Source of the DNA: Paramecium tetraurelia
Lineage: Eukaryota > Ciliophora > Oligohymenophorea > Peniculida > Parameciidae
NCBI RefSeq assembly: GCF_000165425.1
Contig: NW_001799344.1
Location: 67,910-131,909, forward strand
DNA length: 64,000 bases
Reading direction: 5' to 3'
Positions within the stretch are counted from its first letter, which is position 1; each line of letters opens with the position of its first letter. Shown one piece after another: positions 35,910 to 42,054 of this stretch. A program made the position numbers and the translations under genes. The notes beneath the pieces were generated by a model, which saw only the letters and a program-made list of their open reading frames with translations, was not told the DNA's origin and did not search any database.

Positions 35910-36377
35910 ATGTCAATCAATGTCATACTAGAGTGTCCGTCTAAAAGTAAGAGATATAACATTGAAATCACAAATGATGTCACACCATTTTAACTAGAAT
36001 AGGAATTTAAAGAGCAATTTTTTAATAAAGAAGAAAATCTCAGGTTTTATTTTCAAAATCAACTTTTGATTCATAACAAACCATTAGTCGAATAAAAAGT
36101 CGTTAAAGGTTCCTTAATAATCATAGGAGTTTCATATAAAATAAGCTTGAACGTGCCAATCCTGAATAAATTATATTAGGTAGATATTGATGAGTTTTGG
36201 ACGACAGCAGATTTGACTAAAAAGCTTTTAGAGCTGCTATAATTCAGATCAGAGGAAGTCTCATACTAACTAGGGTTATAGGTTTTAAAACCATAAATTT
36301 GGTTGTCTAAATAGGATGTAATAAGCTAATGTACTGTAACAGTGAACATCCAATAAAGGGGAGGTAGATAAGCTTGA
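35910..36377 (+). CDS. Tandem ubiquitin-like protein with C-terminal RGG plus three residues
   Basis: 155 residues, intronless, ATG at 35,910. Two beta-grasp-like halves follow each other. Half 1 (residues 1-75): INVILECPSKSKRYNIEI, then a helix QLEQEFKEQF, then LRFYFQNQLLIHNKPL and KGSLIIIGV. Half 2 (residues 77-152): KISLNVPILNKLYQVDI, helix DLTKKLLELLQF, then Q-x-Q-L-x-L-x-x-L, and IQQRGG, with RQA behind it. Half 2 lines up with ubiquitin over its whole length from the NKLYQVDI strand to RGG. Proteins ending in GG plus a short tail are processed for conjugation in known Ubls. No family assigned. Confidence 0.6.
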
Positions 36378-36610
36378 TTAGTATTGCAAAACATATTATC
36401 AGATAATTCATAAACCTTTTTCTATTAAATTATTTATGGATTTTTAATTTAAAAATACCAAAATATATATAAAAAAACTAAACAATCTTGTTTTTTTCTC
36501 AAATATTTAAAAGTTACTATCAATAGAATTAAATTTTAATTCTACATGAATTAAATATTGTATATCACATTCTAAAAAGAATTCTAAATATTGATTGAAA
36601 TTCAATTAAT

Positions 36611-37607
36611 ATGGGGAATCCTTACTTTCTCAAATTCTACAATAATACTAATTAGGGAGAAATATATTCTGGGTTTATAAAAATATATATATTTTGTTTA
36701 TTTGAAATGCTCAAGTGTTTAACCAGAAAGTCTGATCCAGTTTGTAAATCTCAAAGTTACAAGTTAAAAAATCGAAAATATCGGGAAGAGTAGATAATTG
36801 CAGAGGGAGGGTATGCATATATTTGGAAATGTGAGAACTTTGCTATAAAAAGAATATTCATCCAATCCTAAGAAGTCTATAAAATGGCAATGTAAGAAAT
36901 AAGTATAATGGTATGAATGGGATTTAACATAGACAAGATTACCAGAACATCCAAATATTGTGAAATTAGTCGATTATGGAGAGGTTAAAATACAAAACAA
37001 AATGTTTGTTTGTCTAGTAATGGAATTTTGCTAAAGCAACTTATTTTCTGTTTTATAGCAGGAAGTATTAAGTGAGAGAAGAATTATAGAGATATTTAAA
37101 TAAATTCTTGATGGATTGGAAGTATTGCATGCAGAATAGATTAGTCATAGAGATTTAAAACTTGAAAATATACTTTTACAAGGGGAATCCTTTAAGTTGT
37201 GTGATTTTGGATCAGCATCCAATGAAATCATTGACCTCAGCCAATTGAACAAGGCGTAATTGCTATAGTAAGAGGAGGTGTTCTCTTAAACAACCACTAT
37301 TACATATAGACCCCCCGAGATGATTGATGTATTGACAAGATAGGTGATAGATACAAAAGTGGACATCTGGTAATTGGGATGCATTTTGTATAGCATGTGT
37401 TTTCGTAAATCGGCATTCTCAGAATAGAACAAAATAGGAATTGCACAGGCATTATTCGAAATTCCTTAATCCTAAATTTCGATAAGTACTGTGACATTGA
37501 TTTAAAAAATGTTGTAATAAGATCCAAAGAAGAGGCCGACGATCAAAGAGATCAAGATTTCATTGTATGGTGGTACAGAGGAGGATGAATGGGGTGAATT
37601 CTAATGA
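36611..37607 (+). CDS. NAK-family (AAK1/GAK-like) protein kinase
   Basis: Kinase domain with the NAK-type Gly loop IAEGGYAYIWKCE, Lys in FAIKRIF, loop HRDLKLEN, CDFGSAS, TITYRPPEM and VDIWQLGC, the hallmarks of AAK1/GAK/Ark kinases in clathrin-mediated traffic. A 22-nt intron near 36,914 (after EISIM) restores the frame before TRLPEHPNIVKL. The kinase fills the protein; the end is ...YGGTEEDEWGEF. Start at 36,611 gives 324 residues; an in-frame ATG at 36,707 (MLKCLTRKSDPV) gives 292 and may be the real one. Compact compared with animal homologues, which have long tails. Confidence 0.83.
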
Positions 37608-41032: not shown

Positions 41033-42054
41033 TCAATTGAACTTAAATTTCTATTTGTAAAACTAATTCAAAATGGTAGTAACAATTATGATGAGGATTA
41101 CATATAACGTTTCCTTAAATATGTAGGTAATATAATCTATTAGAGATTGTTCTAAAATAAAGTAGGAAACGAAAATGAGTATGGCCAAGGTCAGTGATCC
41201 GACTATGACTCTGTGATAGGTGATTTGCTCATATTTCTCGTTTAATTTCTTCAGTTGAACCAACATCAATGCGAATAGCAATAGGATTGAATTATTAAGT
41301 ATGAATCTAAAATAATTAGTTATAAAATAGTACAAGTATGTTATTGAAAATACATATCCAAAAATTAATAATAAGTAGATGTCGAGACCTATAGAAATTA
41401 ATAAGGTATAAAGAAGTTAGTATTTGATGATTAGTGTAAATATATTATTATATATACAAATACTCCAATCATGGCTTTTGCAATTTTATTTGCAATCCCA
41501 ACAAAATTCAAATTTACAAACTTAACAAGTCATGTGTGAACAACCACCGTTTTTAGTAATTTTAACTTCACACCTAGGACATTAATATGTAGTGATAAAT
41601 TCAGTGATTTCATTCAATAGTGTTTTATACGAAATCTGTTCATAATTTTCTAAGCGGGTTTAACAGATTTCACAAATATCAACACATTTAGCCTTACAAG
41701 GTTTTAAATAGTAGAATTCACAATTGTTATTTGGACATTATTAGATGTCAATAGATTTTCTGCAATAGCTTTTAAATAGTTGATCATGAACATCTTAAAT
41801 GAAGGAATTTTAGATGGCTAATTGTTGGATGGAATCAAAATAAAGAGTTTTCTAACATCCACCGGGACAATCAATATTTAAATGTGTACCATCAGAAGTC
41901 CAAAATTCTTCTATTTTTATCTAATTAAAAATAATGCATAACCAAAAACCTTGGTGTAGTGTTTAATACATTTCAAACACACCTTGCAATAGCATTCCAA
42001 CAAGGCTATCTCTGCGTGCTCATAACAGATTTGGCAGGTATTTTGAACTTGCAT
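41033..42054 (-). CDS. RING-IBR-RING (RBR) ubiquitin ligase with membrane-spanning C-terminus
   Basis: 330 residues, one 29-nt intron, length divisible by three. RING1: CQICYEHAEIALLECYCKVC; IBR: CPNNNCEFYYLKPCKAKC; RING2: CPRCEVKITKNGGCSHMTC, with the catalytic cysteine expected in NGGC, followed by VCKFEFCWDC. After RING2 three to four hydrophobic spans follow (LYTLLISIGL, IYLLLIFGYVF, ILLLFALMLVQ, LTLAILIFVSYFIL). RBR ligases transfer ubiquitin through a thioester. A membrane-anchored layout is known for RNF19/RNF144 types, so location on ER or other membranes is an inference. No extra N-terminal domain precedes RING1. Confidence 0.9.

Follow-up and report, generated by a model that had tools for sequence, protein, structure and literature searches.

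A two-domain ubiquitin-like gene with a Gly-Gly end

The window analysed here, a 64,000-nucleotide stretch of the Paramecium tetraurelia genome (C172:67910-131909 in the searched assembly of 69 Mb and 231 contigs), carries a short gene for a 155-residue protein made of two ubiquitin-like (Ubl) domains, D1 and D2, followed by a protein kinase gene (Table 1). Genes in the window were read with TAA and TAG as glutamine and TGA as stop, a code that, together with the assembly size, the short introns and the duplicated blocks, suits a Paramecium of the aurelia kind. Under this code (NCBI table 6) the Ubl gene contains 12 TAA/TAG codons read as glutamine, and its product ends in N-I-Q-Q-R-G-G-R-Q-A, exactly the frame, the IQQRGG end and the RQA tail before the stop that a first-pass annotation of the sequence had described. 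Codon-position GC content (first/second/third) is.37/.20/.25 in D1 and.35/.29/.35 in D2, which is gene-like in that it resembles the neighbouring kinase (.36/.29/.35), unlike the flanks (.15-.23). The observation of a tandem ubiquitin-like frame is confirmed as real.

Table 1 Features of the tandem ubiquitin-like locus, in window coordinates
Feature	Position	Strand	Evidence
Tandem ubiquitin-like gene, 155 aa, single-exon reading	35910..36377	+	Table 6 translation, coding-like composition
D1, first ubiquitin-like domain, residues 1-75, no GG at end	35910..36134	+	Rad60-SLD, L002 and L009/L028 profile matches
D2, second ubiquitin-like domain, residues 76-152, RGG end	36135..36365	+	L002 alignment, hhalign, AF2 model
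Gly151-Gly152, putative conjugation end	36360..36365	+	Translation; GG aligned in 4/4 genes
Tail RQA (36366-36374) and TGA stop (36375-36377)	36366..36377	+	Translation
Protein kinase gene, marker of duplicated block	36707..37607	+	Pfam Pkinase 6.3e-44

The RGG end with its short tail gives the gene the C-terminal GG that marks conjugated (type I) Ubl modifiers. Such an end is uncommon in the window: GG occurs in the last six residues of 6/979 stop-to-stop frames of at least 40 aa, most of which are not genes, and of 1/133 frames of at least 150 aa, the one being this gene. The D1-D2 junction reads SLIIIGVSYKISLN, and because it has no GG and hardly any linker, D1 is not releasable in the fashion of polyubiquitin. 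The frame end itself could have been misread if an 18-nt GT...AG stretch (36364-36381), which overlaps the last glycine codon and the stop, were spliced and thereby removed Gly152 and the tail; longer GT...AG stretches of 22, 26, 31, 39 and 40 nt also span the frame end. We consider this very improbable, as introns in Paramecium measure about 20-34 nt, above the length of the 18-nt stretch, and splicing would destroy a GG that three relatives retain.

Both halves are supported as ubiquitin-like (beta-grasp) domains, as first proposed, D1 by sequence and D2 by a structural model and fold search. D1 matched the Pfam family Rad60-SLD (E 8.5e-5, 22.7 bits) just under the cut-off of 23.8, and matched the genome's ubiquitin-type profile weakly (hhalign, P 1.9e-4), while its homology to the proteins described below points the same way. 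An AlphaFold2 (AF2) model of D2 alone, with a predicted local distance difference test (pLDDT) score of 82, has ubiquitin topology and was matched to ubiquitin by both Foldseek and VIA-align 2; the tandem Ubl of chicken OASL (7sbi) was also among the fold matches. Profile searches by half, a check that the first-pass annotation had proposed, gave D1 its sub-threshold Rad60-SLD match and left D2 without any matching Pfam family. D2 did not significantly match a six-row ubiquitin-type profile either (P 0.067 over 18 columns), and a sequence search of the PDB gave a single ubiquitin-like match (13 bits, E 0.77), second among three weak ones. No NCBIfam match was obtained at E up to 1 for the window protein or for two of its relatives (L002 and L009); a third (L028) gave ThiS and Rad23, both sub-threshold.

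Single-domain relatives and the origin of the tandem form

Searching the genome with the full-length protein (E up to 10) returned two places, the gene itself and a locus on contig C164 (27% identity over residues 6-75, E 4.7e-5; 29% in alignment A1). This locus, L002, encodes an 84-aa single Ubl ending VEVEGGGDF-stop. Two more single-domain Ubl genes came from a genome search with Rad60-SLD (48 rows): L009 (83 aa, ending ETQGG-L) and L028 (87 aa, ending KTHGG-RLFY), which find each other in single-protein genome searches. L002 and L028 are each 33-34% identical to L009. GG stands at the aligned position in 4/4 genes and is followed by a tail of 1-4 residues, L002 having GGG, so that the GG is kept at the same place in all three relatives (3/3), all of them paralogues from the same genome. 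Genome searches found no fifth GG gene of the group, although distant ones would escape them. At 19 other Ubl places (L073-L091), hand-picked from 48- and 90-row genome profile searches and from the single-protein search, GG was found in 0/19 within at most 22 residues past the match, some of these being intron-cut exons. Among the four genes the tandem form is the odd one out, its relatives having one domain each.

Sequence comparison connects both halves of the window protein to L002, with E 3e-12 for D1 and E 7e-7 for D2, GG aligning on GG (single-comparison E-values). The score of D2 against L002 was reached by none of 10,000 shuffles of D2, with or without the GG tail, and that of D1 against D2 by 4/10,000. 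A profile of L002, L009 and L028 scored D2 at 29.8 bits (best of 5,000 shuffles, 16.4) and tail-less D2 at 22.2 bits (best shuffle, 14.2), and hhalign against the three single-domain proteins gave P 1.2e-7 for D2 and 1e-13 for D1. The two pairs, the window gene with L002 and L009 with L028, are linked through profile searches only. A profile of L009 and L028 scored L002 at 32.9 bits, D1 at 33.4, D2 at 20.9 and D2 without its tail at 14.5, the scores of L002, D1 and D2 each being reached by 0/5,000 shuffles; these scores tie L002 and D1 to L009 and L028 more closely than a general likeness to ubiquitin would. Profile A2, searched against the PDB, was led by ubiquitin and ISG15 (redesigned ubiquitin 46.4 bits, an ISG15 chain 45.0, di-ubiquitins about 39), and the profile of the single-domain proteins aligned with the genome's ubiquitin-type profile at P 3.2e-9, again with GG on GG. 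Since D2 by itself fails against the ubiquitin-type profile, its kinship with ubiquitin runs mainly through L002. The colinearity with ubiquitin over about 67 residues originally reported for D2 was therefore not recovered directly and stands by way of L002; the register of that direct alignment is plausible, though weak alone.

On the order of duplication, the best tree unites D1 with L002 (support 86/94, not starred), the alternatives D1+D2 and D2+L002 are unrejected (approximately unbiased test, p-AU 0.363 and 0.367), and in pairwise scores D2 is closer to L002 (71) than to D1 (46). Because L009 and L028 are single-domain proteins, a gain of the tandem form is favoured over a loss of one domain in L002.

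The window gene and L002 derive from one duplicated block, as four collinear blocks show: window 14-54 kb and C164 77-126 kb share them in the same order and orientation, while another two matches, weak ones at 25% and 30% identity, depart from this order. A kinase copy 70% identical to the window kinase adjoins L002, with 35 bases from the L002 stop to the kinase ATG; the corresponding distance in the window is 329 bases in our own reading, which also supplied the start and short intron of the window kinase. The kinase probably has no role in how the Ubl works. Near window 53 kb lies a gene whose copy on contig C178 is 90% identical and whose copy on C164 is 83% identical (15 rows), and the whole-protein genome search gave no Ubl match on C178. 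The C178 copy being closer yet without a Ubl match, we infer that the C164 block goes back to an older duplication and that the Ubl gene has disappeared from the more recent partner. An IBR-domain frame at window 41036-41995 on the reverse strand (PF22191, E 2.7e-10) lies 4.7 kb from the Ubl gene. The first-pass annotation had allowed that the nearness of this RBR ligase might be chance, and chance it looks to be, as the IBR gene is unmatched in the duplicated region: nothing in C164:77000-146900 matches window 37.7-52.6 kb at E 1e-6, and the pair shows no conserved IBR linkage.

In another reading the duplicate L002 would be the functional gene, and the window gene its degenerate, partly duplicated relative. 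The identity of the window protein to L002, far below the 70% of the adjoining kinases, and the long branch of D2 would fit such decay. However, the 155-codon frame is unbroken and both its halves are gene-like in codon-position composition, the fold and the GG persist, and L002 and L028 are themselves so far from L009 that divergence is general among these genes. Decay is, in our judgement, improbable.

Several other Ubl loci were met in the genome. A longer frame (L091, C71, 359-955, reverse strand; 198 aa from its ATG, ending ISQRRIV) closes with a related Ubl domain but was excluded from the group for want of a GG. Among 11 further Ubl rows, GG occurs in L009, L028, L060 and L031 and in none of the other 7, intron-cut frames included. 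L031/L057 (C183:105702-106130) is a divergent poly-ubiquitin-like frame beside a polyubiquitin array; its units end in RLKGG-GQ and RLKGG-FSDKI. L060 (C67:203556 on) is a ubiquitin unit that ends RLRGG and continues with CFPGNAPIKLFNGR..., which has the look of a ciliate BUBL (intein-like) gene. Polyubiquitin is encoded at L018 and L023. The intron-cut frame L007, taken for the SUMO of this genome, did not attain E 1 with a five-domain profile. Six stretches in viral contigs matched a pattern, and none encodes a relative by tblastn.

A putative tandem modifier and a candidate activating enzyme

We read the window gene, which with its three relatives makes up a set of four GG-ended Ubl genes, as encoding a conjugated modifier of two ubiquitin-like domains, and hold this to be somewhat the better bet on the sequences at hand. 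The RQA tail would need cutting, and a cysteine protease of the DUB or Ulp kind would remove it after Gly152, exposing the Gly152 end. A ubiquitin-activating enzyme (E1) of the UBA1/UBA6 class, perhaps a divergent second one, would adenylate Gly152, and a conjugating enzyme (E2) with a ligase (E3) would put the intact D1-D2 unit on target lysines, D1 serving as a fused recognition module as do the N-terminal domains of ISG15 and FAT10. Both ISG15 and FAT10 become conjugated by such a route.

Candidates for the activating step are present. Four places in the genome carry E1_UFD, and two of them were read in part. One (L093, C202) is UBA1-like, with 290 bits to E1 ubiquitin-activating enzyme, 273 to UBA1 and 233 to UBA6. 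The other (L092:3-1325, C64:21000-22500) comprises the last 441 aa of another UBA1/UBA6-class E1, 31% identical to the first; its best solved relative is UBA6 (206 bits, against 189 for UBA1 and 129 for UBA7), a 17-bit lead over UBA1 by which orthology is not proven. UBA6 is described as confined to chordates and echinoderms (PMC12355090). That the genome has another single-chain E1 suggests either an additional client or an additional route for ubiquitin, and L092 is a candidate enzyme for the window Ubl.

A number of observations weigh against a conjugated modifier. The AF2 model of the full 155-aa protein is uninformative (pLDDT 35), its strand and helix order alone hinting at two beta-grasps, so that the structure prediction first proposed as a check succeeded for D2 alone; in that job, 1/5 models reached pLDDT 82 and the others 49-55. 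D2 is very divergent, with tree branches of 2.68 and 4.47 changes per column, which could reflect relaxed constraint, and the end is IQQRGG instead of LRLRGG. L002 passes no Pfam cut-off, and single-protein genome searches with the window gene or L002 miss L009 and L028, and vice versa. Ubiquitin scores 18.0 bits with the L009+L028 profile, by which D2 stands hardly above the general ubiquitin level, and the E1 is assigned by homology only.

An alternative is a two-domain Ubl adaptor that is not conjugated and binds its partners by mimicking ubiquitin, much as the tandem Ubl region of OASL does, its GG being left over from an ancestral modifier. In its favour, D2 has diverged far more than D1 and carries the altered end, its Ile44-patch positions look unlike those of ubiquitin as judged by eye, and the chicken OASL tandem Ubl is among its fold matches. 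A relic, however, sits poorly with the way all four genes keep GG and a short tail at the corresponding position, and with a GG retained precisely in the most divergent domain. We regard the adaptor as a serious though unlikely alternative to the conjugated modifier; overall, the interpretation first offered is partly supported.

A broader proposal is that ciliates evolved their own tandem modifier in parallel to ISG15 and FAT10, from fast-evolving, processed GG-ended Ubls and with a second, UBA6-like single-chain E1. We put this forward tentatively, as rather doubtful. If true, tandem Ubl modifiers would be a recurrent invention beyond vertebrate interferon biology. Among the literature matches listed, which comprised titles and abstract openings and few subscription papers, neither this Ubl group nor a ciliate tandem Ubl modifier was described; a search on bacterial ISG15-like systems gave no paper, though such systems are published. 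Descriptions of ISG15 and FAT10 come from animals, where they are immune and stress proteins, and both are listed as absent from the six protozoan parasite genera seen in Table 1 of PMC7600729. A ciliate tandem Ubl with a putatively processable GG, set beside its collinear single-domain duplicate, offers a ready comparison of what the additional Ubl domain contributes, and with a candidate second E1 alongside, the question is approachable in a genetically workable cell.

Comparison with known ubiquitin-like systems

The proteins that the window product most resembles differ from it in their ends or their context. It shares with polyubiquitin and BUBL the head-to-tail ubiquitin-fold units found in ciliates; however, the gene has no GG at the unit junction, and therefore is not polyubiquitin, and its stop lies three residues past the final GG. 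A SUMO/Rad60 likeness is seen in that D1, L009 and L028 have Rad60-SLD as their best Pfam family, whereas the window protein lacks an N-terminal extension, and no SUMO chain is among the matches listed (60 of 287 PDB matches) for profile A2. OASL likewise has two tandem Ubls, which belong to a larger protein, whereas the window product is a free 155-aa protein with a GG. FAT10 also consists of two fused Ubl domains; it is described as made mature and unprocessed (PMC7600729), and as activated by UBA6, without an equivalent of the Ile44 patch and with both domains used on UBA6 (PMC12355090). The window protein, by contrast, has the RQA tail after its GG, and so is not FAT10. With ISG15 it shares the layout of two Ubl domains in a single chain, an RGG end and a short precursor tail. 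The ISG15 precursor is described with an LRLRGG end and a tail of 8 aa (PMC9722776), whereas the window protein has an IQQRGG end and a 3-aa tail, and its nearest single-domain relatives sit in the same ciliate genome. As the end sequence differs, it is not ISG15; differing from the one in its end and from the other in its tail, it stands as a tandem Ubl distinct from ISG15 and FAT10, in line with the first-pass annotation, and would be a Ubl of the tandem-modifier mode if conjugated.
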